From positions 1-64,000 of the forward strand of contig JAFIHG010000018.1 of the NCBI GenBank assembly GCA_017848795.1: DNA of 64,000 nucleotides, read 5' to 3'. The notes below the pieces were generated by a model. That model worked only from the letters and a program-made list of their open reading frames with translations, did no database searches and was not told the origin of the DNA. Of this stretch, positions 2,962 through 16,274 are shown in pieces. Each line of letters begins with the position of its first letter. Within the stretch, counting starts at the first letter, position 1. Made by a program: the position numbers and the translations under genes. This DNA comes from Candidatus Nanopelagicales bacterium (GTDB taxonomy: Bacteria; Actinomycetota; Actinomycetes; S36-B12; CAIYMF01).

Positions 2962-3051
2962 GGAGGGCTCGCATAGTGGCCTAGTGCGGCGGTCTTGAAA
3001 ACCGCTGTGGCGGCAACCCCGTCACCGTGGGTTCGAATCCCACGCCCTCCG
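2962..3051 (+). tRNA. tRNA-Ser(UGA)
   Basis: A 90-base tRNA with a long variable arm. The acceptor stem is GGAGGGC paired with GCCCTCC, the anticodon stem GCGGT/ACCGC closes the loop CTTGAAA giving anticodon TGA, and the T loop is GTTCGAATCC. CCA is not encoded. It resembles the tRNA-Ser(GGA) at 52951 in its D-arm region. Confidence 0.97.
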
Positions 3052-3065
3052 CGCTCGGAACCCCT

Positions 3066-3135: not shown

Positions 3136-4152
3136 TCAGACCCGGCGTCTGCGGCGTACGACGGTGTCCAGCGCGACCGAGGCGATGATCACGACACCGA
3201 TGACGATCGTCTGCCAGAACGACGACACGCCCGCGAGGATCAGGACGTTCTGCAGCGTCGCGATCAGCAGCACCCCGACCAACGTCCCGAGCATCGTCCC
3301 GGACCCGCCGAACAGCGCGGCCCCGCCGATGATGACGGCGGTGATGACGAGCAGCTCCAGACCGACCCCGGTCGTGCCCTGGACGTAGAGCAGGAACGAC
3401 AGCCCGACAGCGCCCGCGAGCCCGGCGAGGACACCCTGGATCACGAACGACATCACGCGGACCCGGGCGGTTGCGATCCCGCACAGCCGCGCCGCCTCGC
3501 GACTGCCACCGACCGCATAGGTGTGGAAGCCGAACTTGGTGAAGCGCAACAGGAACCCGCCGACCAGGACGGCGAGCAACATCAGGATCAGCTGCATCGG
3601 GATACCGAACGGGCGGCCGTTGCCGAGGTAGGCGAAGCCCTCGATGTTCGGGATGGTCTGGTCGAGGCTGATCGGCGCGGCGTTCGTCATCAGCAGCGCG
3701 ATCCCGCGGAACACGCTCAACGTCCCGAGCGTGACGATGAAGCTGGGCAGGCCCAGCCCGACGGTGATGACACCGTTGACCAGGCCGCACAGTCCGCCGA
3801 CGACCAGCCCGAGAAGCAGCGCCACCGGCCACGCGACCTCGGCCTGCAGCAGCATCCCGACGCACATGCTCACCAGGACGTAGATCGAGCCGACGCTCAG
3901 GTCGATCTCGCCGGCGATGATGACGAACGTGGCGCCGACCGCCATGATCCCGATGAGCGACGCCTGCTGACCAACGTTGAGCAGGTTGTCGCTGCTGCGG
4001 AAGCCGTCGGTGCCGAAGATGCCGTAGACGCAGAGCAGGGCGAGCGCGAGGATCACGCCGAGCTCGCGCTGGCGGATCACCCGGTCGACCATGCTCCGGG
4101 TCGTACGGGGGCCGGCAGGCGGCGTGCTCACGGGGGGTACGGCGGTCTGCAT
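3136..4152 (-). CDS. Sugar ABC transporter permease (RbsC/BPD_transp_2 family)
   Basis: A 338-residue integral membrane protein with about eight to ten hydrophobic segments. The segment GEIDLSVGS (around residues 100-108) is the EAA-like conserved region of ribose/xylose/galactose-type permeases (Pfam BPD_transp_2). It forms the membrane channel with the ATPase encoded immediately upstream at 4196-5707 and the lipoprotein at 5704-6759; all three are on the minus strand, divergent from the catabolic genes starting at 7098. The start is the ATG at 4152, 43 bases after the ATPase stop; an internal ATG at 4092 is less likely because it removes the cytoplasmic N terminus. Confidence 0.9.
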   Translation of the reverse strand: MQTAVPPVSTPPAGPRTTRSMVDRVIRQRELGVILALALLCVYGIFGTDGFRSSDNLLNVGQQASLIGIMAVGATFVIIAGEIDLSVGSIYVLVSMCVGMLLQAEVAWPVALLLGLVVGGLCGLVNGVITVGLGLPSFIVTLGTLSVFRGIALLMTNAAPISLDQTIPNIEGFAYLGNGRPFGIPMQLILMLLAVLVGGFLLRFTKFGFHTYAVGGSREAARLCGIATARVRVMSFVIQGVLAGLAGAVGLSFLLYVQGTTGVGLELLVITAVIIGGAALFGGSGTMLGTLVGVLLIATLQNVLILAGVSSFWQTIVIGVVIIASVALDTVVRRRRRV

Positions 4153-4195
4153 CAGTTCACTCTCGTCAGGGTCGACGGCGGGTGGGTCGGGCGGT

Positions 4196-5707
4196 TCACG
4201 CTGGGCTCGCGGCTACGGACCGGGTGGCGAGCGCCATCACCTCTTGCTCGGTCGCGGTACGCGCATCGACGGCACCGGTGACCTGACCGCGGCTGAGGAC
4301 CACGATCCGGTCGCAGACCCGCAGCAGCTCGGGCAGGTCCGAGGAGGACATCAGGACGGCGGCGCCGCTGCGCGCCACGTCGACGAGACGGTCGTGGATC
4401 TCCGACTTCGCCCCGACGTCGACGCCGCGTGTCGGGTCGTCCAGGAGCAGCAGGCGGGGCTCGCGGGCGAGCCAGCGGCTGAGGATGACCTTCTGCTGGT
4501 TGCCGCCGGAGAGCCCGGTGACGACACCGCCGGAGCTCCCGCGGACGTCGTACTCGGCGAGCCGCGCCTTACCCATGCGACGCAGCCGGCGGTGATTGAC
4601 CAGGCCGAACCGGGACGAGGTCTCGACGTCGAGCACCGTCGCATTGTCGTTGACGGAGAGGTCGGGGAACAGCGCCTGCGAGCGTCGTTCGGCAGGCACG
4701 TAGCCGATCCCGGCACGCATCGCGTCCCGCGGCGAGCGGACACGCAGGCGCACCCCGTCGAGCCGCACGTCACCGGTCGCGGGTACGGCGCCGAAGAGTG
4801 CGGCGACGAGGGCGTTGCTGCCGGAGTCGGGAAGGCCCGCGACGCCGACGATCTCGCCGGCGCACACGGTCAGCGACACGCCGCTGAAGGCGGCAGCGGA
4901 GAGGTTCGCGACCTCGAGCAGGGGTGAGCCGACCGTACGGCCGTCGTCGCGCACAGCAGCGGCGAGCTCGCGCCCGACCATCGCCGAGATGAGCCGGTCG
5001 GTCGTGACCTCCGCGGCATCGAACGATGCGACGTGCCGGCCGTCGCGCAGCACGTGGACCAGGTCGGCGAGCTCGATGATCTCGGGAAGCCGGTGGGAGA
5101 CATAGAGGATCGTCGTGCCCCGGTCGCGCAGCCGGCGCAGCAGCGCGAACAGCCGCGACGCCTCGTTCGGCGTGAGAGAGGTCGTGGGCTCGTCGAGGAT
5201 CAGCACCCGGCAGTCTCGGGCGAGTGCCCGCGCGATCAGGACGAGCTGCTGCTCGGCCACCGACAGCAGGCCGGCGTCCTGACGCGGGTCGATGGGGGTG
5301 TCGATCTGCTCGAGCAGCGCCCGGGTCTGCTCGTTCATCCGGCGCCGCGACGGCAGCACGCCGGGTTCCCTGCCGAGCAGCACGTTCTCGGCGACGGTGC
5401 GGTCGCGGCACAGCGCGATCTCCTGTGGCACGAGCGCGATCCGGTGCTCGTGCAACATCTGGCTCGGCGAGTAGCCGCTGACCGCCGTCCCGGCGACGGT
5501 CAGCGTGCCGGAGTCGGGACGCTGCAGCCCGGCCATGATCGTCATGAGCGTCGACTTGCCGGCGCCGTTCTCGCCGAGCACCGCCGTGATCTTGCCGGGC
5601 GGGAAGTCGAGGCTGACGTCGTTCAGCGCCTGGACTCCGCCGAAGCGCTTGCAGAGCCCGCTCACGCGCAGCGTGAGCGGGCTCTGCAGCAGGGTGTCTT
5701 CCGTCAT
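4196..5707 (-). CDS. Sugar ABC transporter ATP-binding protein, two ABC domains (RbsA/MglA type)
   Basis: A 503-residue protein with two fused nucleotide-binding domains, the layout of CUT2 monosaccharide importers. The first has Walker A GENGAGKST, signature LSVAEQQLV and Walker B ILDEPTTSL. The second has a degenerate P-loop (GLPDSGSNAL) but intact LSGGNQQKV and LLLDDPTRGVDV. One canonical and one degenerate site is normal for this class. The start ATG overlaps the stop of the binding-protein gene as ATGA, so the two are translationally coupled. It would energise uptake of the substrate of the adjacent ribokinase/RbsD operon. Confidence 0.93.
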   Translation of the reverse strand: MTEDTLLQSPLTLRVSGLCKRFGGVQALNDVSLDFPPGKITAVLGENGAGKSTLMTIMAGLQRPDSGTLTVAGTAVSGYSPSQMLHEHRIALVPQEIALCRDRTVAENVLLGREPGVLPSRRRMNEQTRALLEQIDTPIDPRQDAGLLSVAEQQLVLIARALARDCRVLILDEPTTSLTPNEASRLFALLRRLRDRGTTILYVSHRLPEIIELADLVHVLRDGRHVASFDAAEVTTDRLISAMVGRELAAAVRDDGRTVGSPLLEVANLSAAAFSGVSLTVCAGEIVGVAGLPDSGSNALVAALFGAVPATGDVRLDGVRLRVRSPRDAMRAGIGYVPAERRSQALFPDLSVNDNATVLDVETSSRFGLVNHRRLRRMGKARLAEYDVRGSSGGVVTGLSGGNQQKVILSRWLAREPRLLLLDDPTRGVDVGAKSEIHDRLVDVARSGAAVLMSSSDLPELLRVCDRIVVLSRGQVTGAVDARTATEQEVMALATRSVAASPA

Positions 5708-6759
5708 CCCTCAGGGGTTGTCGTGTCGACGTTGCTCTTGTCGACGAGGAGCGCCGGCATGATCTTCGTCTCCGGCGGCGTGCCGTTCTCCAGGTAGTCC
5801 TTGATCATCTCGATCGCCGTGAAGACCTGGCCGACCGGGTCCTGGCTCAGTGCGAAGGCGATCGTGCCCTTCTTGATGTAGTCGAGCGTGGCCTGCAGGG
5901 CATCGGTGCCGATCACCACGACCTTGCCCGACTTGCCCTCCTTCTCGGCCCACTTCGCCGCCCCGACGATGCTGCAGCAGTCGACGCTGGCGATGGCGAG
6001 CGCGTCCGGGTTGGCCGTCATCGCGTTCTGGATCGCGTTGTACATCTGGGCCGGTTCCATGCCGGTGTTGACCGGGCCGACGAACTCGAGGTCGGGGTTG
6101 TCGCCGAGCCCTTCCTTCAGCCCGTCCATGCGCTCCTTGGACCAGCCGGCCGCGGTGTCGACCGAGATGGCGACGACCTTGCCCTTCTTGCCCTGCAGGG
6201 TCTCGGCCAGCTTGCTGCCCTCTTCCTTGCCGAAGGCGGTGTTGTCGGCACCGACGAACGCGAGCTGCTTGGAGTTCGGCTGGTCGGTGAAGGCCGAGAC
6301 GAACGGGATGCCCGCGTCGAACGCCTGCTGGATCACCGGCTTGAGCGAGTCGACGTTCACCGCGGCGACGACGATGCCGTCCACCTGCTTCTGCGCGATG
6401 AGCGTCTGGATCAGCGAGACCTGGTCCTCCGCCTTGCCGGTCGGGGGTCCCTGCAGCTCGGCGTCGACCCCGAGATCGGCCACCGCCTTCTCGACGCCGG
6501 CCTTCTGCGCCGCCGTGTACGAGCTGGACAGGTCGTTGGTGATGTAGACGAACTTCAGCTTCTGCCCGGACGCGACGTGGTCCTTGATGTAGTCGGCGAG
6601 CTCGAAGCCGGCGAGCGTGCCGGTCGCCGACGCGGACGGTGAGGAGTCGGTCGGGGTGCCGTCCGTCGCCGGCGTCGAGGAGGAGCTGCCGCCACACGCC
6701 GCGAGGACGAGGGACGCAGCACCGAGCGCCGCGACCACGGCGACCCTTCTTCTGAGCAT
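5704..6759 (-). CDS. Sugar-binding lipoprotein of the ABC importer (Peripla_BP_4 family)
   Basis: A 351-residue secreted protein. A lipoprotein signal peptide with lipobox LAAC (residues 18-21) is followed by a Ser/Thr-rich linker to about residue 48, then a two-lobed periplasmic-binding-protein fold of the ribose/galactose type. It should be anchored outside the membrane and deliver a monosaccharide-like ligand to the permease. It contains an unusual CC pair near residue 258 (ASVDCCS) that might be a disulfide. It is the first gene of the minus-strand importer operon. The ligand cannot be read from the sequence; the ribokinase/RbsD neighbours suggest a pentose or a related compound. Confidence 0.9.
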   Translation of the reverse strand: MLRRRVAVVAALGAASLVLAACGGSSSSTPATDGTPTDSSPSASATGTLAGFELADYIKDHVASGQKLKFVYITNDLSSSYTAAQKAGVEKAVADLGVDAELQGPPTGKAEDQVSLIQTLIAQKQVDGIVVAAVNVDSLKPVIQQAFDAGIPFVSAFTDQPNSKQLAFVGADNTAFGKEEGSKLAETLQGKKGKVVAISVDTAAGWSKERMDGLKEGLGDNPDLEFVGPVNTGMEPAQMYNAIQNAMTANPDALAIASVDCCSIVGAAKWAEKEGKSGKVVVIGTDALQATLDYIKKGTIAFALSQDPVGQVFTAIEMIKDYLENGTPPETKIMPALLVDKSNVDTTTPEG

Positions 6760-7097
6760 TTATGACCTCCGACGAGGGCTATCCGGCACCGCCCTGTGGA
6801 GATGCCTGGTGGCTGTGGATGATCGTAGACAACCTGTCACATAGTCAAGCACGTCACCGAACCGTTATGGTCCGTGTCGCAATCCTCTGGCCGGCCGCAC
6901 CCGCGATCCTCCCAGGCCGTGGACCGGATGGGAAATCTGCCTGTGGCGAGGCCGGTTTGACGGCTGCTCGGCATGTGCTCCGGGCCGCGGTCCCGTCGAG
7001 AGCACATGCTTGCGGCGCCTCCCCCGGCGCGTTACAGTCCCCGAGCAACCCCCTGTGGACCACCCAGTACAAATCCACCCGGTACGAATGAGGTGCG
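6760..7097. promoter_or_regulatory. Divergent control region between importer and catabolic operons
   Basis: This 338-base gap holds promoters for both operons. Toward the binding-protein gene, TTGACT (6847-6842) and TACGAT (6826-6821) lie 15 bases apart, with a small dyad GACA-ACC-TGTC (6828-6838) between them. Toward the ribokinase gene, a larger inverted repeat pairs GCATGTGCTC (6971-6980) with GAGCACATGC (7000-7009). Either dyad could be the operator of the GntR-family regulator at 8505; which one is unknown. Confidence 0.5.
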
Positions 7098-7991
7098 ATG
7101 TCGGACATCGTCGTCGTCGGCAGCTACGGCGCCGGGCTCACGGTCCGGCTCGACCGGGCCCCGCTCGCGGGAGAGACTGTCGTCGGGTCCGACTTCACCG
7201 TGGCGCACGGCGGGAAGGGTTCGAACCAGGCCGTCGGCGCGGCCCGGCTCGGCGCTCGCACCTTGCTGTGCACGGCGGTCGGCGAGGACCACTACGGCGC
7301 CAACGCCTTCGAGCTGTGGAACGAGGAGGGTGTCGACACGAGCCTCACCCGCAGGCTGCCCGGCTCGACGATGGTCGGCGTCATCCTCGTCGACGCGCAG
7401 GGCGAGAACCGGATCGCGATCGTGCCCGGGGTGCTCGCGGACTTCGACGCGGGCGCCCTGCAGGGGCTCGCGGAACGGCTCGATGGCGTCGGCGTGATGC
7501 TCGTCGGGCTGGAGATCCCGGTCGCCACCGCCCACGAAGCGTTGCGGATCGGCCGGGCGGCCGGTGTCACGACCGTGCTGAACCCGGCACCTGCGCCGGT
7601 GGAGACACTGCCAGCGGGCATGCTCGAGCTTGTCGACCACATCACCCCGAACCGCACCGAGGCGGCGACGCTCACCGGGCTGCCGCCCGATACCGATCCG
7701 GCAGCGCTCGCCTCCCACAGCGTTTTCGACGCCGTGCCCAACGTCGTGCTGACGCTGGGCGCGGAGGGTGTCCTGCTGCGTGGGACCGACGGTCACGAGC
7801 GGGTGCCGGCGCCGGTCGTCGATGTGGTCGACACGACCGGCGCGGGTGATTCCTTCAACGCGGCGTACGCGGTCGCACTGTCCCGCGGCGAGGCGCCCGC
7901 GGCCGCCGCGAAGTACGCCGTACGCGCAGCGGCTTTCAGCGTCACTCGGCCGCTGCCGATCCCGTCGCTGCCGTACCAGAGCGATCTCTGA
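7098..7991 (+). CDS. rbsK: Ribokinase (PfkB family sugar kinase)
   Basis: A 297-residue PfkB-family kinase, typical ribokinase length. The N-terminal substrate motif HGGKGSNQA (around residues 38-46) and the C-terminal signature DTTGAGDSF (around 248-256, with the catalytic Asp) are intact. It phosphorylates a pentose, usually D-ribose to ribose 5-phosphate, in the cytoplasm. It is followed by rbsD 29 bases later and lies opposite a monosaccharide ABC importer, the classical ribose-utilisation arrangement. Because a DeoC-like aldolase ends the operon, a 2-deoxyribose kinase or a kinase for a modified pentose is an alternative. Family call is firm; substrate is inference. Confidence 0.88.
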   Translation: MSDIVVVGSYGAGLTVRLDRAPLAGETVVGSDFTVAHGGKGSNQAVGAARLGARTLLCTAVGEDHYGANAFELWNEEGVDTSLTRRLPGSTMVGVILVDAQGENRIAIVPGVLADFDAGALQGLAERLDGVGVMLVGLEIPVATAHEALRIGRAAGVTTVLNPAPAPVETLPAGMLELVDHITPNRTEAATLTGLPPDTDPAALASHSVFDAVPNVVLTLGAEGVLLRGTDGHERVPAPVVDVVDTTGAGDSFNAAYAVALSRGEAPAAAAKYAVRAAAFSVTRPLPIPSLPYQSDL

Positions 7992-8020
7992 CGATCGCCC
8001 GATCCACCGAGGAGAACGCC

Positions 8021-8482
8021 GTGAAACGCTCCGGACTGCTCAACGCCGAGCTGTGCCATGCCATCGGCTCGCTCGGCCACGGCGACGAGCTGCTCGTGGT
8101 CGACGCGGGCTTCCCCGTCCCGCGCAGCGCCTGGCGGATCGACCTGGCGGTCACCGCCGACCTACCGGCCCTGCGCACCGTGCTCGACCTCATCGGCGAG
8201 GAGATGATCGTCGAGGGCATCACGGTCGCCGACGAGGTGAAGACGAACAACGCGCCACTGTACGAATGGCTCGACGCACGGTGGCCCACAGTCGAGGTCG
8301 GCACCGTGCCCCATACCGAGATGCTCGCCGAAGCCGCCGGGCGCGCCAAAGCGGTCGTACGCACCGGCGCGTTCGAACCCTGGGGCAACGTCCTGCTCGC
8401 GAGCGGCGTCGACGTCCCTGCCTGGTTCACCAATCCCGATGTCGTCGTGCCGGACTACTACCGCGACCGGCTGGGCTCATGA
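8021..8482 (+). CDS. rbsD: D-ribose pyranase (RbsD/FucU mutarotase family)
   Basis: A 153-residue RbsD/FucU-type mutarotase, near the family length of about 140. It keeps the conserved SLGHGDE segment with the catalytic His (around residues 17-23), DAGFPVP and the C-terminal RTGAFEPWGN. RbsD interconverts pyranose and furanose forms so the kinase receives the right anomer. The GTG start at 8021 has a clear AGGAG seven bases upstream. It sits directly after the ribokinase gene and before the GntR regulator, consistent with one transcript. Confidence 0.9.
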   Translation: MKRSGLLNAELCHAIGSLGHGDELLVVDAGFPVPRSAWRIDLAVTADLPALRTVLDLIGEEMIVEGITVADEVKTNNAPLYEWLDARWPTVEVGTVPHTEMLAEAAGRAKAVVRTGAFEPWGNVLLASGVDVPAWFTNPDVVVPDYYRDRLGS

Positions 8483-8504
8483 TGCGCAGCAGCGGAGGCA
8501 CGCG

Positions 8505-9278
8505 ATGACCGTCGCGATCGACGAGCAGATCGAGGGGCTCGCGGCGCTGCTGAGCCGCACGTCTCCGGAGCCGCTGCACGACCAGATCTCGGGGATGCTG
8601 CGCCAGCGCATCGTCTCCGGGCGGTGGCCACCGCGGATGCGGTTGCCGAGCGAGCCGGAGATGGCGACCCTGCTCGGGGTCGCGCGCGGCACCATCCGCC
8701 GTGCGATAAAGACGCTGCTCGCAGAACGGCTGCTCGTCCAGCACCAGGGACGCGGCACTTTCGTGGCGTCGCAGATGCTCGAGCAGTCCTTCGCCCAGGA
8801 GATCATCTCGACCTCGGAGGCGCTCGACCGCGACGGCGTCCGCTACGACACCAAGGTGCTGCGGCGCGCGGTGGAGCTCGCCGCCCCGGCGGTCGCCGCC
8901 CACCTGCACCTGCTGGACCAGGAGGCGCAGGTCGTGGCGCTGCGCCGCGTGCGCTCGGTCGAGGGCGCGCCCGTGTTCGTCCTCGACAACTACGTGATCG
9001 CGTCGCTGTGCCCGGGCCTGGAGTCCGCCGACCTCGGCGGCCGCGCGCTGTTCACGGTGCTGGAGGAGGACTTCGACATCGTGGTCAGCGGGGTGCAGCG
9101 CACCTTCCAGGCACAGGCCGCCACTCCGGAGATCGCCCAGCTGCTCGAGATGGAGCCGGGTGAGCCGGTGCTGTACCTCGAACAGGTGTCGTTCGAGCCG
9201 GACGGCCAGCCGATCGAATACTCGGACGTGTGGATCCGCGGCGACAAGCTCCGCGTCTCCTCCTGGCTGGCCCGATGA
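8505..9278 (+). CDS. GntR-family transcriptional regulator (HutC/UTRA type)
   Basis: A 257-residue regulator. Residues about 25-90 form the GntR winged helix (LHDQISGMLRQRIVSG, LPSEPEMATLLGVARGTIRRAI), and about 100-250 match a UTRA effector-binding domain, placing it in the HutC subfamily. It should repress the importer and catabolic operons until a pathway sugar or sugar phosphate binds. The ATG at 8505 is preceded by GGAGG and removes a non-conserved upstream extension. Its position inside the operon implies autoregulation. Its operator is probably one of the dyads in 6760-7097. Confidence 0.9.
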   Translation: MTVAIDEQIEGLAALLSRTSPEPLHDQISGMLRQRIVSGRWPPRMRLPSEPEMATLLGVARGTIRRAIKTLLAERLLVQHQGRGTFVASQMLEQSFAQEIISTSEALDRDGVRYDTKVLRRAVELAAPAVAAHLHLLDQEAQVVALRRVRSVEGAPVFVLDNYVIASLCPGLESADLGGRALFTVLEEDFDIVVSGVQRTFQAQAATPEIAQLLEMEPGEPVLYLEQVSFEPDGQPIEYSDVWIRGDKLRVSSWLAR

Positions 9279-9319
9279 CGAACCGCGACCGGCACGGATC
9301 CGGACTGGGGAGGAAGTGA

Positions 9320-10258
9320 ATGGACGACTACATCGATCCAGGCGCGGCGAAGGTGCTGGCGGACGCGGCGGGGATACCCGACGCCAAGGACTGGTGGCAG
9401 ATGACGCCGGCCGAGGCGCGCCAGACGATGGCCGACGCCGGGGCGCTCATGCGCGAACCGGTGCAGGTGGCGCACGTGCGCGACCTGGTGATCCCCGCCG
9501 AGCACGGCGAGCTCTCTGCCCGGCTCTACCGCCCCCACGACCGGCCCGCGCCGTTCGTCGTCTTCGTCCACGGCGGTGGCTGGGAGGTGGGCTCGGTCGA
9601 GATCTACGACCCGCTCGTACGCCGGCTCGCTGTCGAATCAGGCTGCGCCGTCCTGGCGTTCGACTACCGGCTCGCGCCCGAGCACCCGTTCCCGGCCGCA
9701 CTCGAGGACTGCTGCACCGCGATCTCCTGGGCCTACGACAACCTCGCCGAGCTCGGCGGTGACGACGGGTTCTTCGCGGTGGCCGGCGACTCCAGCGGCG
9801 GCAACCTGGCGGCCGGTGCTGCACAACGGTTACGCGACAACGGGTTCGCCGCCATCGACCACCAACTGTTGATCTACCCGGTCGTCACGCGCGACTTCGT
9901 CAGCCCCTCGTACGAGGCGTACGGCGAAGGGTTCGCGCTGACCACCCGGACCATGCAGTTCTTCTGGGACCTCTATGTCGGTGACGAGACGCCCCGCTAC
10001 GCCGACCTGCTGGCGGCGCCGCTCGAGGGCCTGCCGCCGGCGACCATCGTCACGGTCTCGCTCGACCCGCTGCGCAGCGAGGGCGAGGAGTACGCCGAAC
10101 GGCTCGCGGCCGCCGGGGTGCCCGCGACGCTCGTGCGGGTCTACGGCTTGCTGCACGGCGGTTGGCTCCAGGACAGCACCAGTGAGCGCGCGTACCAGTT
10201 CGGCCACGACCTCGCGGGGATCCTGCGCCGCGCGGCGGCGCGACCGGACGCCGGCTGA
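9320..10258 (+). CDS. Alpha/beta hydrolase, HSL/family IV esterase
   Basis: A 312-residue cytoplasmic esterase of the hormone-sensitive-lipase group. The oxyanion-hole motif HGGGW (around residues 81-85) and the nucleophile motif GDSSGGN (around 156-162) are intact, with a C-terminal LHGGW segment likely carrying the catalytic His. A GGGAGGAAG ribosome-binding site precedes the ATG. It lies 41 bases after the GntR gene and 50 before the dioxygenase gene, so it probably belongs to the same operon and may de-esterify or open a lactone of the pathway substrate. The actual ester is unknown. Confidence 0.87.
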   Translation: MDDYIDPGAAKVLADAAGIPDAKDWWQMTPAEARQTMADAGALMREPVQVAHVRDLVIPAEHGELSARLYRPHDRPAPFVVFVHGGGWEVGSVEIYDPLVRRLAVESGCAVLAFDYRLAPEHPFPAALEDCCTAISWAYDNLAELGGDDGFFAVAGDSSGGNLAAGAAQRLRDNGFAAIDHQLLIYPVVTRDFVSPSYEAYGEGFALTTRTMQFFWDLYVGDETPRYADLLAAPLEGLPPATIVTVSLDPLRSEGEEYAERLAAAGVPATLVRVYGLLHGGWLQDSTSERAYQFGHDLAGILRRAAARPDAG

Positions 10259-10308
10259 GTGCCCGCGTTCCGCCAACGACACCCACACCGCACCGATAGG
10301 AGTAGTCC

Positions 10309-11079
10309 ATGCTCAGCGCTGAGCAACTGAGCCAGTACGAAGCAGAGGGATTCGTCATCATCCCGGGGCTGCTGCAACCGGATGAGGTGACGGCCTTCCG
10401 CGACCGGGCGCGCAGCGACCTGCGCGGTGCGGCAGAGTCCGAAGGTCTGATGGCCAAGGGCGACACCGAGGGCAACACCACGCTGCTGAAGATGTGGTAC
10501 CGCGCGGACGACAGCTTCTACGGCCGGGTCGCCCGCGACCAGCGGCTGGTCGACATCGCCCGGCAGATCATCGGGCGCGACACCTACCTCTACAGCCACA
10601 AGATGACGATGAAGGAACCGCGCATCGGCGGCGCCTGGGAGTGGCACCAGGACTACGGCTACTGGTACCAGAACAAATGCCTCGCGCCGGACATGCTCAG
10701 CATCTGGCTGGCGCTGGACGACTCCACCCGCGCGAACGGCTGCCTGCAGGTGCTGCCGCGCTCGCACCGCCTGGGCCGGCTCGACCACGACCGGGTCGAC
10801 GGGCAGACGGTGGTGGACGCCGAGTACCTCGCGGCGGCGCTCGAGCGGTTCGACCTGCAGTACGTCGAGATGGATGCGGGGGACGCGCTCGTGTTCGACT
10901 GCAATCTGCTGCACCGCTCGGACGCCAACCGCAGCGACGGCCCGCGCTGGGGCTACATCGCGTCGTACAACGCCGTCGACAACGAGCCGTTCCGGCACGT
11001 GCGCGAGTACGGCCGGTACGAAGAGCTGGTGCCGGTGCCCGCCGGAAGCTTCCGGGACGCCGACGCGATCCCCGTCTGA
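10309..11079 (+). CDS. Phytanoyl-CoA dioxygenase (PhyH) family protein
   Basis: A 256-residue Fe(II)/2-oxoglutarate dioxygenase of the PhyH superfamily. The iron ligands are visible as the HxD of WHQDYGYW (around residues 109-116) and a distal His in LLHRSDANRS (around 201-210), whose Arg would bind 2-oxoglutarate. Such enzymes hydroxylate or demethylate small metabolites. The stop shares a base with the start of the alcohol dehydrogenase gene (TGATG), indicating tight coupling, so the hydroxylated product may be the dehydrogenase substrate. A TAGGAG sequence precedes the ATG. Substrate unknown. Confidence 0.87.
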   Translation: MLSAEQLSQYEAEGFVIIPGLLQPDEVTAFRDRARSDLRGAAESEGLMAKGDTEGNTTLLKMWYRADDSFYGRVARDQRLVDIARQIIGRDTYLYSHKMTMKEPRIGGAWEWHQDYGYWYQNKCLAPDMLSIWLALDDSTRANGCLQVLPRSHRLGRLDHDRVDGQTVVDAEYLAAALERFDLQYVEMDAGDALVFDCNLLHRSDANRSDGPRWGYIASYNAVDNEPFRHVREYGRYEELVPVPAGSFRDADAIPV

Positions 11080-12158
11080 TGCGCCAGGCGCCGGCCGTCG
11101 TCCTCGAGGCGTATGGCCGTCCGCCGGTGCTGCGCGAGGTGAGCATCGCGGACCCCGGAGCGGACGAGGTCCTCGTCGGCGTACGTGCCAGCGGCGTCTG
11201 CCGCACCGACCTCGCGGCGGTACGTGACGCGCGCGCGGTCCCGGTGGTGCTCGGGCACGAAGGCGCCGGGGTTGTGCTCGCGGCCGGCGCGGCGGTCCGG
11301 ACGGTCGAGCCGGGGGACCACGTGGTCGTGAACTGGCAACCCAAGTGCGGCCGGTGCCGGTACTGCGTGAGCGGGCGCCGGGAGTTCTGCGACGGCGTCC
11401 GCGGGACCGCCGCGCCGCGGGTGCACCACGGGGGCGAGCCGCTCGCGGTGATGCTGAACGCAGGCACGTTCTGCCCCTTCGCTGTGGTGCCGGCCGCCGG
11501 GGTGGTCAAGGTCCGTCCGGATCTGCCGTTCGCCGCAGCCGCGCTGCTGGGGTGCGCCGTTGCGACCGGAGTCGGCGCCGCCCTGTACGGCGCGCGGATC
11601 CAGCCGGGCGACACCGTGGTGGTGCTCGGTGCCGGCGGGGTGGGACTGAACGCGGTGCAAGGAGCGCGGATCGCCGGAGCCGGACGGATCATCGTCACCG
11701 ACCACGACCCCGAGCACCTCGCGCTCGCCGGCCGGCTCGGCGCGACCGACCTGATCGCCGCCGCCGACGACGTGCGGGGTGCCGTACACGACCTCACGGC
11801 CGGGCTCGGCGCGGACCACGTGCTGGAGGCGGTCGGCGCCGCGCAGCTCGTCGAGCTCGCGGTCTCCCTGCTGGCCCGCGGCGGCACCGTGACGTTGCTC
11901 GGTGCCACCGCACGCGACGCGGTGGCCGGGTTCTCGCCCCGCACGCTGCTGAGCCGCCAGCAACGGATCCAGGGCTGCATCTACGGGAACATCGCGCCCG
12001 AACGCGACCTGCCGCTTTTCGCGGACTGGTACCTGCAGGGCCGGCTCGAACTCGACCCCTTCGTCTCTCGCACCATCGCACTGGCCGAGGTTCCGGAGCT
12101 GTTCACCGAACAGAGCGGATCGGGCGTGCGGACCGTCGTCGACCTGGAGGCAGCATGA
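11079..12158 (+). CDS. Zinc-dependent alcohol dehydrogenase (MDR family, class III-like)
   Basis: A 359-residue medium-chain dehydrogenase. Catalytic zinc ligands appear in SGVCRTD and GHEGAG (around residues 40 and 62), the four-Cys structural zinc loop is complete (CGRCRYCVSGRREFC, around 90-104), and the Rossmann motif GAGGVGLNAVQ lies near 185-195. It oxidises an alcohol with NAD(P), probably the product of the upstream dioxygenase; reduction of the aldehyde released by the DeoC-like enzyme is an alternative. It overlaps both neighbours (TGATG upstream, ATGA downstream). Confidence 0.9.
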   Translation: MRQAPAVVLEAYGRPPVLREVSIADPGADEVLVGVRASGVCRTDLAAVRDARAVPVVLGHEGAGVVLAAGAAVRTVEPGDHVVVNWQPKCGRCRYCVSGRREFCDGVRGTAAPRVHHGGEPLAVMLNAGTFCPFAVVPAAGVVKVRPDLPFAAAALLGCAVATGVGAALYGARIQPGDTVVVLGAGGVGLNAVQGARIAGAGRIIVTDHDPEHLALAGRLGATDLIAAADDVRGAVHDLTAGLGADHVLEAVGAAQLVELAVSLLARGGTVTLLGATARDAVAGFSPRTLLSRQQRIQGCIYGNIAPERDLPLFADWYLQGRLELDPFVSRTIALAEVPELFTEQSGSGVRTVVDLEAA

Positions 12159-13021
12159 CGTATCACCGGCTCGAGGAGCTGCGACCCGACCAGCTCGAAC
12201 GCCGGCTCGCGGAGAAGCCGGTGCTGGTGCTGCCGTTCGGCACCATCGAGTGGCACAGCTACCACCTCCCGCTCGGGCTCGACGGGCTCGTCGCCGACGA
12301 CGTCGGCTCCCGGATCGCAGCGGAGTGCGACGCGGTGCTCGCGCCCACGTCGTACTGGGCGGTCGGCGGGGTCCCGTACCCGCACACCCTCAATCTGCCC
12401 ATCGACCTGGTCGAGCCGCTGCTGCGGACGCTGTTCGAACAGTTCGCCGAGATGGGGTTCGAGGTGATCGTCGGGTTCACCGGTCACTTCGGGCTCGACC
12501 AGACTCTCGCGCTCAAGCGTGCGGCGGTCGAGGTGATGCGACGGTCCCCCGCGACCGTGGTCCCCTTGACCGCGTACGACGTGGTGACCGACCTCTACCC
12601 CGGCGATCACGCCGCGGTCGGCGAGACGTCCATGCTGCTGGCGAGCCGTCCCGAGCTCGTCGACCTGCAGGCCGTACCCGACGGACAACCGCTGGACGGC
12701 GTGCTCGGCGACGATCCGCGCGGTCGGGCCGATGGTGCACGGGGTGCCGAGATCCGCGACGCCGTCGTGAGCCGTACCGCCGCGGTCGTGGACCGGCTGC
12801 TGGGTGCGGAACGGCTCGCCCGCCGCCAGTACGTCGAGGCGCTCGCCGCCGGGGTCGCTGCGCTCGCCGACCTGGCCGACCGGCGCAGCCGGGCACCCAA
12901 GAGCACCGTGCCGCCGGTCGCCACGCCGACCTATCTCTCGCACTGCGGTGCACTCTGGGCAGGGGACTACGGAAGCGCTAGACAGTTTGCGGAGCAGAAG
13001 CGGCTCGATCCCGCAATCTGA
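12155..13021 (+). CDS. Creatininase-family metal-dependent amidohydrolase
   Basis: A 288-residue protein of the creatininase fold, whose members include creatinine amidohydrolase, MftE and FAPy deformylase ArfB. Metal-ligand motifs are recognisable though altered: IEWHSYHLPLGLD (around residues 27-39) stands for the usual EQHGxHLPxxTD, and GHFG (around 111) for GHGGN. The late DDPRG..ADGARG segment matches the family's substrate loop. It overlaps the dehydrogenase by ATGA. Cleavage of a cyclic amide or C-N bond in the pathway is the simplest idea, but the residue changes leave the reaction open. Confidence 0.82.
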   Translation: MTYHRLEELRPDQLERRLAEKPVLVLPFGTIEWHSYHLPLGLDGLVADDVGSRIAAECDAVLAPTSYWAVGGVPYPHTLNLPIDLVEPLLRTLFEQFAEMGFEVIVGFTGHFGLDQTLALKRAAVEVMRRSPATVVPLTAYDVVTDLYPGDHAAVGETSMLLASRPELVDLQAVPDGQPLDGVLGDDPRGRADGARGAEIRDAVVSRTAAVVDRLLGAERLARRQYVEALAAGVAALADLADRRSRAPKSTVPPVATPTYLSHCGALWAGDYGSARQFAEQKRLDPAI

Positions 13022-13065
13022 CGAAGTGTACATACCTGTCCAGTCGCAGGGTGTAGCATGACCGC

Positions 13066-13749
13066 ATGCTTGCCGCACTCCTCGCGCCCGCCCAGCTCGC
13101 CCCCTACATCCAGCACACCCTGATCCGCGCCGACGCGACGGAGCAGCAGGTCCGCGCCCACGTCGAGGAGTGCCTCGAGTACGGCTTCGACGCGGCGATG
13201 GTCCCCGGCCCATGGGTGCCGCTCGCGGCGGACATCCTGCGGGGGAGCAATGCCGTCGTCGCGTCCGCGCTCGACTTCCCCACGGTCGGGGTCATGACGA
13301 GCGCCGGAAAGGCCGCGGAGGCCGCCGAGCTGGTGCGCCTCGGCGCTGAGCAACTCGACATGGGCGTGCAAATCGGGTGGCTCAAGAGCGGGCGCTACGC
13401 CGCGTTCCGCGACGACATCGCCGGTGTGGTGGCGAGCGGAGTGCCGGTAAAGGTGATGCTCGAATTGCCCCTGCTGACCGCGCCCGAACGCGAGACGGCG
13501 ATCGCGCTCGCGGTCGAGGCGGGCGCTGCGTACCTCAAGAACGCCAGCAGCGGCACCGTGGAAACGGCCAACGTCGAGAGCATCCGCTATCTGGTGGAAC
13601 GCGCCCCGGAAGGCGTTCTCGTGAAGGCCTCCGGTGCGATCACGTCGTACGAGCAGACGGTCGCGTTGCTCGACGCCGGAGCCGCGCTCGTCGGTACCAG
13701 CGCAGGAGTCGCCATCGTCGACGGCTGCGGCTCGAGCGAGAGCTACTGA
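13066..13749 (+). CDS. deoC: DeoC-like class I aldolase with altered phosphate-binding residues
   Basis: A 227-residue TIM-barrel aldolase of the DeoC family (deoxyribose-phosphate aldolases are about 220-260). The Schiff-base Lys is in YLKNASSG, the second active-site Lys in VLVKASGAIT, and the Asp in LDMGVQIG aligns with DERA Asp102. However, IDHTL is IQHTL, and residues that hold the 5-phosphate in E. coli DERA differ: KTSTGK is KNASSGT, GGxR is GAIT and the C-terminal GASS is GTSA. The family is clear, but a substrate other than deoxyribose 5-phosphate is likely. A 44-base gap with a TGTAGCAT -10-like element precedes the ATG, so it may have its own promoter. Confidence 0.8.
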   Translation: MLAALLAPAQLAPYIQHTLIRADATEQQVRAHVEECLEYGFDAAMVPGPWVPLAADILRGSNAVVASALDFPTVGVMTSAGKAAEAAELVRLGAEQLDMGVQIGWLKSGRYAAFRDDIAGVVASGVPVKVMLELPLLTAPERETAIALAVEAGAAYLKNASSGTVETANVESIRYLVERAPEGVLVKASGAITSYEQTVALLDAGAALVGTSAGVAIVDGCGSSESY

Positions 13750-13840
13750 GCGAGAACATCACCGCCGTCCGAAGCGGCGACCGCCGCCCCGGCTGGTGCC
13801 GGGACGGCGGATCGGTGGCGGGCGCGGCGGCCGCGACCTG

Positions 13841-13993
13841 TCACGTACGACTGCGCCGGCCGAGCACGACCCCGTTGATCAGTCCGGCGATCAGCAGGAT
13901 CGCCGCAATGATCAGCAACCATTTCAGGGTGGTACCAAGGCCGATGCCGAAGAGGATTACCGCGGCTACCAGCAACACGATGAGCAGCGTCAT
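13841..13993 (-). CDS. Small hydrophobic membrane protein (50 aa)
   Basis: A 50-residue protein with two adjoining hydrophobic helices (residues 2-20 and 23-46) ending in a basic GRRSRT tail. A GGAGGTG ribosome-binding site lies six bases before the ATG at 13993. The two-helix hairpin with a positive tail resembles the short 'hydrophobic protein' family common in actinobacteria, probably in the cytoplasmic membrane; function unknown. It is convergent with the DeoC-like gene. Confidence 0.7.
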   Translation of the reverse strand: MTLLIVLLVAAVILFGIGLGTTLKWLLIIAAILLIAGLINGVVLGRRSRT

Positions 13994-16180: not shown

Positions 16181-16274
16181 GGAGGCGTCGCCTAGTCCGG
16201 TCTATGGCGCCCGCCTGCTAAGCGGGTTTGGGGCTACAACCCCATCGAGGGTTCAAATCCCTCCGCCTCCGCCA
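16181..16274 (+). tRNA. tRNA-Ser(GCU), CCA encoded
   Basis: A class II tRNA of 91 bases plus an encoded CCA (16272-16274). Acceptor GGAGGCG pairs with CGCCTCC, and the anticodon loop CTGCTAA in a CCCGC/GCGGG stem gives anticodon GCT. A TACCCT -10-like hexamer lies at 16166-16171. It is the only tRNA in the window with CCA in the gene. Confidence 0.97.

Follow-up and report, generated by a model that had tools for sequence, protein, structure and literature searches.

A gene cluster of a Candidatus Nanopelagicales bacterium with a predicted role in the breakdown of 2-O-methylribose or a related C2-altered sugar

2'-O-Methylation is among the commonest modifications of RNA, and hydrolases acting on such nucleosides release 2'-O-methylribose. 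The breakdown of 2'-O-methylated nucleosides has been termed largely unexplored (PMC12709175; papers given by PMC number are cited here from excerpts). PhyH-family enzymes demethylate 2'-O-methyl nucleosides, and a nucleoside hydrolase frees 2'-O-methylribose (PMC12709175). A soil 2'-O-methyluridine hydrolase, RK9NH, adjoins a DERA-like aldolase, and in Intrasporangium the neighbourhood also includes GntR and ribokinase genes; in Microbacterium, genes for a hydrolase, an aldolase and a ribokinase form a cluster related to an Agromyces 2'-O-methylribonucleoside hydrolase (PMC6278475). Here we analyse a gene cluster at positions 3,136–13,749 of a 64,000-nucleotide stretch (the window) of contig JAFIHG010000018.1 from Candidatus Nanopelagicales bacterium (the host; assembly GCA_017848795.1), in which a sugar ATP-binding cassette (ABC) importer (3136–6759, minus strand) faces an eight-gene plus-strand run (7098–13749).

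With the rbs operon (RbsDACBK) the cluster shares a CUT2 importer, RbsD and a PfkB kinase; in the window, however, Asn14, Asp16 and Ala98 of the kinase are replaced, the RbsD motif reads PWGN, and an oxygenase, a dehydrogenase, hydrolases and an aldolase are added. The deoQKPX deoxyribose operon likewise has a PfkB kinase for a C2-altered ribose, with DeoC acting downstream in the pathway, but its DeoK retains both Asp16 and Ala98 and is not a member of the window kinase's clade. Genes of corrinoid O-demethylase systems replace PhyH beside the same kinase in two other loci (L212:5423–17651 and L213:5419–17770; loci are coded L and genomes G, G000 being the host assembly), which are of corrinoid type and may encode a cobalamin O-demethylase for a sugar; none was found in the window cluster. 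The IolM/IolN inositol route resembles the window in pairing a zinc dehydrogenase with a creatininase-fold hydrolase, and was rejected because the window proteins score far below both cut-offs (139.3 against 450 for NF041097 and 27 against 245 for NF041098). The RK9, Microbacterium and Agromyces-type clusters have in common with the window a DERA-like aldolase, a ribokinase and, in Intrasporangium, GntR, a set that locus L235 carries beside a nucleoside hydrolase; going by the description of RK9 in the excerpts of PMC6278475, the window differs in having an importer, RbsD and a PhyH cassette and no nucleoside hydrolase. PHYHD1/FJS, finally, are PhyH-family 2-oxoglutarate (2OG) oxygenases that demethylate 2'-O-methyl nucleosides (PMC12709175); O-demethylation of a methylated ribose is proposed for the window PhyH too, which is of a distant subfamily and would act on sugar or sugar phosphate.

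Judging by the comparisons below, the operon probably serves the catabolism of 2-O-methyl-D-ribose or of a closely related sugar changed at C2. The most likely source of 2-O-methylribose is the breakdown of 2'-O-methylated RNA, which leaves this sugar. The argument starts from the pocket of the RbsK homologue. In Escherichia coli ribokinase, ribose is contacted by Asn14, Asp16, Gly42, Lys43, Asn46, Glu143 and Asp255 (PMC9604405); in the related PsuK, Asn14 and Asp16 bind the 2'-OH, while Asp16, Gly41 and Asn45 bind the 3'-OH (PMC9247573). We compared 23 PhyH-linked kinases (from the window, 20 of the 21 loci L026–L046, L113 and L114; L030 ends ahead of its kinase) with 59 controls. For these we took the 30 top-ranking ribokinase-model loci of a search in 60 genomes of the host's class and the 30 of another in 61 genomes of the order of G454, left out two and added E. 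coli DeoK. The omitted loci, L168 and L170 (G456 and G454), have the altered pocket, are PhyH-linked and belong to genomes already known for a PhyH locus.

The position of Asp16 is occupied by Gly or Ala in all 23 PhyH-linked kinases and by Asp in all 59 controls, E. coli deoxyribokinase included; that of Ala98 is Gly in all 23, as against Ala in 58 controls and Cys in one. Asn14 is replaced in 23 of 23 as well, but its loss is weaker evidence, because 13 of 58 scorable controls also lack it. Gly42, Lys43, Asn46 and Glu143 are retained throughout the 23, and Asp255 in all 22 that are readable there, so the C2 side of the pocket is rebuilt while the rest is kept. In E. coli ribokinase, the exchange A98G brought a 15-fold rise in kcat with arabinose, which is epimeric to ribose at C2 (PMC9604405). 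In the window kinase both Asn14 and Asp16 have become Gly, and the ribokinase contacts to the 2-OH are therefore missing; the catalytic Asp255 and the contacts Gly42, Lys43, Asn46 and Glu143 are those of a ribokinase. Its score of 253.3 bits, below the ribokinase cut-off of 299.65 (TIGR02152), says little by itself, because many control kinases with the ordinary Asp16 pocket also miss it. Although they come from five phyla, the PhyH-linked kinases form one clade (97/92), which with ten further relatives grows to 33 rows (98/94); the clade can be read from its signature (Asp16 to Gly or Ala, Ala98 to Gly) and comes with a testable gene set. Since the pocket is altered around C2 in all 23, the kinase probably meets a still-modified sugar, ahead of the oxygenase. 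This renders doubtful the order proposed in a first-pass annotation of the cluster, in which de-esterification, hydroxylation, oxidation and hydrolysis precede phosphorylation.

What the modification may be is suggested by loci in which the same kinase has other partners. In a reverse search, a Mesorhizobium kinase was used to query 297 genomes. Of the 30 loci obtained, 22 have Asp16 and eight the altered pocket, four of which have PhyH in the cluster (G454, G456, G535 and G559, the first three known beforehand). In G715 and G732 no PhyH was found in the 19 kb examined; importer, kinase and RbsD are followed on the same strand by two URO-D-family methyltransferases, a corrinoid protein, AraC, DeoC, a RACo-type corrinoid activator and DUF1638. 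G691 and G591 combine the altered-pocket kinase with DeoC, a Gfo/Idh oxidoreductase and a TIM-barrel isomerase homologue, with no PhyH in the stretch. That two unrelated methyl-handling chemistries adjoin the same kinase is our main reason for reading the modification as a methyl ether, and it agrees, as does the altered C2 pocket, with the earlier suggestion of a modified, possibly methylated, sugar. If the reading is right, operons that resemble each other in other respects use unrelated enzymes to deal with one methyl ether. In the host's class, six of 394 genomes contain a close kinase (E 1e-55); all six kinases have the altered pocket, and each shares its cluster with DeoC; among these six loci PhyH is confined to the window, one of the other stretches being just 5.8 kb.

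Nucleoside hydrolases provide a second line of evidence. In the actinobacterial locus L235 the same kinase, DeoC and GntR adjoin a nucleoside hydrolase that is 52% identical to one lying ~6.4 kb from PhyH in a Mesorhizobium (L038), as compared with 33–45% identity to five hydrolases near Asp16 kinases (a sixth, in L137, has no usable open reading frame and was left out). The L038 stretch has neither ABC importer nor RbsD; it carries ECF-like transporter genes, whose S component scores 28.4 against a cut-off of 30.7. The L235 and L038 hydrolases and the published work on RK9NH and on PhyH-family demethylation (PMC6278475; PMC12709175) together point to 2-O-methylribose. Among the papers listed in a literature search, with most subscription journals outside its reach, none described this pathway or a corrinoid O-demethylase with a ribokinase.

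In the pathway we propose, the ABC importer, by homology, would bring 2-O-methylribose in, the RbsD homologue would turn its ring form, and the kinase would phosphorylate O5 while O2 is still methylated. The sugar phosphate would then have two exits. DeoC, whose catalytic residues are present, could cleave it to give glyceraldehyde 3-phosphate plus a C2 fragment bearing the methoxy group, or PhyH, for which PHYHD1/FJS is the precedent, could hydroxylate the O-methyl group so that the methyl falls off. GntR would sense the sugar or the sugar phosphate. The dehydrogenase and creatininase homologue, whose genes form an overlapping chain with PhyH, would most likely process the oxidised methyl; with low confidence, we place them at the end of the route, acting on this methyl or on the C2 fragment. 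As a tentative guess, oxidation of the O-CH2OH adduct or of formaldehyde would give a formyl ester, and its hydrolysis formate. The esterase could de-acylate the sugar ahead of uptake, or act inside the cell. For all three of these enzymes the role is one that we infer. A broader proposal, possible but doubtful, is a widespread salvage of RNA-derived 2-O-methylribose, with a dedicated kinase clade and interchangeable methyl-ether routes (a 2OG dioxygenase, cobalamin methyltransferases, or aldol cleavage of the still methylated sugar), in which window-type clusters would use a formaldehyde-free relay from O-CH3 through O-CH2OH and O-CHO to OH and formate.

Several observations weigh against 2-O-methylribose as the substrate or against parts of this scheme. 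The kinase residue counts come from one clade and hence reflect few independent events. Nor does the pocket fix the substrate: an Arabidopsis ribokinase without the Asn14 equivalent retains ribose activity (cited in PMC9604405), 13 of the 58 controls have lost the same residue, and Salmonella RbsK and DeoK each accept both ribose and deoxyribose (PMC13432705). The proteins of the G715 and G732 corrinoid loci reach the cut-offs of Pfam but fall short of those of NCBIfam, and these loci are so closely related (MT1 is 92% identical) that they count as one event. Demethylation is not obligatory, since neither PhyH nor corrinoid genes occur in the stretches seen around the Asp16-less kinases of L214, L215, L226–L228, L235 and L236. 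No PF01156 nucleoside hydrolase was found in the host assembly, so the sugar would have to enter free. PHYHD1 is inactive on phosphorylated nucleosides (PMC12709175, as excerpted), whereas the proposed order sets PhyH after the kinase; the window PhyH is of a different subfamily. In many Rhizobiales, PanB-like genes occupy the place of DeoC, without explanation in this model: in at least 11 of the 18 closest PhyH loci described below, RbsD is succeeded by such a protein (for example L027:16023–16853), and the one tested matches PF02548 but scores far below the PanB cut-off. Lastly, the window DeoC passes the DERA cut-off (153.3 bits against 117.3 for TIGR00126) and has the catalytic Asp, Lys and Lys, which are kept in all 13 DeoC homologues compared.

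This last point also favours the alternative that fares best, though we think it unlikely: a 2-deoxyribose operon in which a deoxyribokinase would act with DeoC in its conventional aldolase role, and PhyH would produce ribose by hydroxylation at C2, in the manner of a fungal nucleoside 2'-hydroxylase. Such a 2OG enzyme is known from Neurospora (PMC12709175), the window kinase is without the 2-OH contacts, and DeoC clusters with the altered kinase in several PhyH-free loci. However, E. coli DeoK retains Asp16 and Ala98, and in the kinase tree it falls outside the altered-pocket clade and does not group with the window kinase; cobalamin methyltransferase genes in the place of PhyH would make no sense for deoxyribose; the Schiff-base lysine is followed by Asn or Gln in the window DeoC and in eight kinase-linked ones, as against Thr in the five others compared, for which the stretches seen are short; and RK9DPA, the DERA-like aldolase beside RK9NH, failed to replace E. 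coli deoC (PMC6278475, as excerpted). Slightly less probable again is another C2- or C3-altered pentose, such as D-arabinose, lyxose, a 2-C-branched sugar or a different O-methyl pentose. The Ala98Gly exchange is the one that improves E. coli ribokinase on arabinose (PMC9604405), and the binding protein is nearest, weakly, to rhamnose, rhizopine and allose binders, but plain arabinose or lyxose requires neither PhyH nor corrinoid methyltransferases.

The first-pass annotation had also considered an N-linked sugar with hydrolysis of a C–N bond. Such a nitrogen-containing or creatinine-like substrate, suggested by the creatininase fold, is very improbable: the protein belongs to the family named there, yet scores 70.6 against the creatininase cut-off of 235 (TIGR04448), and at the thresholds used its close relatives are found only in this type of cluster. 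It carries Gly-His-Phe-Gly, which differs from GHYE, which we take to be the motif of true creatininases. In the host's class, the host is the one genome among 394 with a close member (E 1e-15); further ones occur in one of the 21 PhyH-locus genomes (a Devosia; three others have weak matches of 31–35% identity) and in three of 397 genomes of the order of the Devosia genome (E 1e-30). They come to four genomes in total, all with the gene clustered with PhyH, importer, RbsK, RbsD, dehydrogenase and DeoC. Six further creatininase homologues are on plasmids, with no shared cluster in the four annotated records. An ordinary ribose operon with unrelated neighbours is hardly credible, for although the window RbsD passes the D-ribose pyranase cut-off (122.5 bits against 93 for NF008761), the same set is found again in other genomes, some of the genes overlap, the kinase has a changed pocket, and the host possesses another ribokinase-like gene (G000:C28; Asp16 intact, 272.4 bits, also below the ribokinase cut-off) by which plain ribose may be covered, so that the window kinase may not be needed for it.

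The cluster is not a chance neighbourhood. Such a neighbourhood was to have been recognised by the importer and the PhyH-to-DeoC genes never occurring together elsewhere, but they do so in G819, with homologues of all eleven window genes in one stretch (deoC, gntR, rbsK, rbsC, rbsB, rbsA, rbsD, est, phyH, adh and creat), in G535, with ten of them (gntR missing), and in a Devosia metagenome-assembled genome, with nine (gntR and est absent from the stretch seen). Because the set recurs in these genomes, the genes can be regarded as one functional unit, as had been proposed. G819 and G535 have an AraC regulator in addition. Among the loci searched, the dehydrogenase and creatininase homologue occur only where PhyH and DeoC are found together, that is, in the window, G819, G535 and Devosia, about three lineages.

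A scan of 84,980 species genomes with a PhyH alignment gave at least 564 relatives, and the best 80 loci were kept. Within these 80, 18 loci reach 58% identity or above; 15 of the 18 have permease, binding protein and ATPase, 15 have RbsD and 17 an RbsK homologue (the exception is at a contig end); the next three loci by E-value (48–51% identity) all have an RbsK homologue. It is found in one of the remaining 59, ~9 kb off; many of their contigs are short, and two of the 59 also reach 48–49% identity. Many Rhizobiales share the subset of PhyH, importer, RbsK and RbsD. In the host's order, PhyH relatives (E 1e-10 or better) occur in 12 of 99 genomes including the host, the next best at 35% identity or less. 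When eleven loci were compared, the actinobacterial operon L228 was the best match for the kinase (49%), RbsD (64%), GntR (50%), permease (56%) and ATPase (51%) and equal best for DeoC (69%), but the search of it yielded neither PhyH nor the dehydrogenase, the creatininase homologue or the esterase. G819, of the order of Devosia, was the best match for PhyH (70%), the dehydrogenase (57%) and the creatininase homologue (60%). A mosaic origin is indicated, because core and cassette genes match different loci best, and the window looks like an actinobacterial core that acquired a PhyH–dehydrogenase–creatininase cassette. That the host is an actinobacterium is borne out by eight WhiB matches above the cut-off in its genome; of 14 control genomes, one, Corynebacterium, gave matches to this family.

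The genes named in the first-pass annotation are all present, with reading frames and families in agreement (Table 1), and the overlaps noted there from the dioxygenase to the creatininase homologue are real: TGATG at the PhyH/dehydrogenase junction, then ATGA at the dehydrogenase/creatininase junction. The DeoC gene does not overlap, starting 44 bp past the creatininase homologue gene. The gap between them (13022–13065) contains GTGTACATAC, a possible GntR-type operator.

Table 1. Features of the window cluster, with positions in the window and strand
Feature	Positions	Strand	Remarks
RbsC-type permease, CUT2 sugar ABC importer	3136–4152	-	PF02653; NCBIfam matches mostly sugar permeases, all below cut-off
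RbsA-type double ATPase	4196–5707	-	PF00005 in two stretches
Periplasmic sugar-binding protein	5704–6759	-	Nearest models RhaS, rhizopine and allose binders, all far below cut-off
Divergent intergenic region between importer and catabolic genes	6760–7097	.	Expected control region
RbsK homologue, PfkB kinase of the Asp16-less, Ala98Gly clade; proposed 2-O-methylribokinase	7098–7991	+	
RbsD-family pyranase, RTGAFEPWGN replacing PY(A/S)N of solved RbsDs	8021–8482	+	
GntR/HutC-type (UTRA) regulator	8505–9278	+	Homologues in clusters of L228, L235 and G819
HSL-type esterase (Abhydrolase_3)	9320–10258	+	Homologues in G819 and G535 clusters
PhyH-family Fe(II)/2OG dioxygenase; proposed O-demethylase	10309–11079	+	PF05721
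Zinc alcohol dehydrogenase, kin to N,N-dimethyl-4-nitrosoaniline (NDMA)-dependent, mycothiol-formaldehyde and class III enzymes, below their cut-offs	11079–12158	+	
Creatininase-family metal hydrolase, rare subfamily	12155–13021	+	53–60% identity to Devosia, G535 and G819 copies
DeoC-type aldolase	13066–13749	+	Catalytic Asp/Lys/Lys; Asn, not Thr, after Schiff-base lysine

The window PhyH matches PF05721 at 147.5 bits, and H113, D115 and H202, presumably the His-x-Asp ... His iron site of the family, are invariant in four sequences. Its nearest structures in the PDB are 7e01 and 7dzz; the structure 2opw of PHYHD1, a distant subfamily, is matched at E 5.6e-11. The docking residues of PHYHD1 are K102, H105, Q139 and W277. 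In RbsD, Trp replaces the Tyr of PY(A/S)N, for which we assume an active-site role, in the window and in all 17 PhyH-linked sequences read, as against Tyr in three of three PDB RbsD sequences and in 10 of 11 control RbsD-like rows (Phe in the other). The dehydrogenase had been called class III-like; it is a zinc dehydrogenase related to that class, but its scores against mycothiol- and glutathione-type formaldehyde dehydrogenase models (260.3 against 512.9 and, for class III, 228 against 543.95) are below the cut-offs, and a formaldehyde dehydrogenase proper was rejected for that reason.

Two tRNA-Ser genes (2962–3052 and 16181–16274) flank the window cluster. Mobile insertion at the first was rejected, as a search with the tRNA-end pattern, a weak test, matched only two other tRNA-Ser ends; G+C content, likewise a weak test of insertion there, is flat along the cluster. 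Elsewhere, a Marinimicrobia locus (L041:3445–16648) combines PhyH and the altered kinase with an ADP-ribosylglycohydrolase and large look-alike proteins, 11540–13873 having no Pfam match, and L044:12939–15503 bears an FGE domain. On a Fuscovulum plasmid (L019:1–8681) a creatininase homologue and an aldo/keto reductase lie beside rhizopine-type genes, possibly for an IolN-like use. In Catenovulum (L018:7944–16956) a distant PhyH relative adjoins a sugar porter, sulfatases and GH16, and is perhaps an enzyme for a methylated algal sugar.

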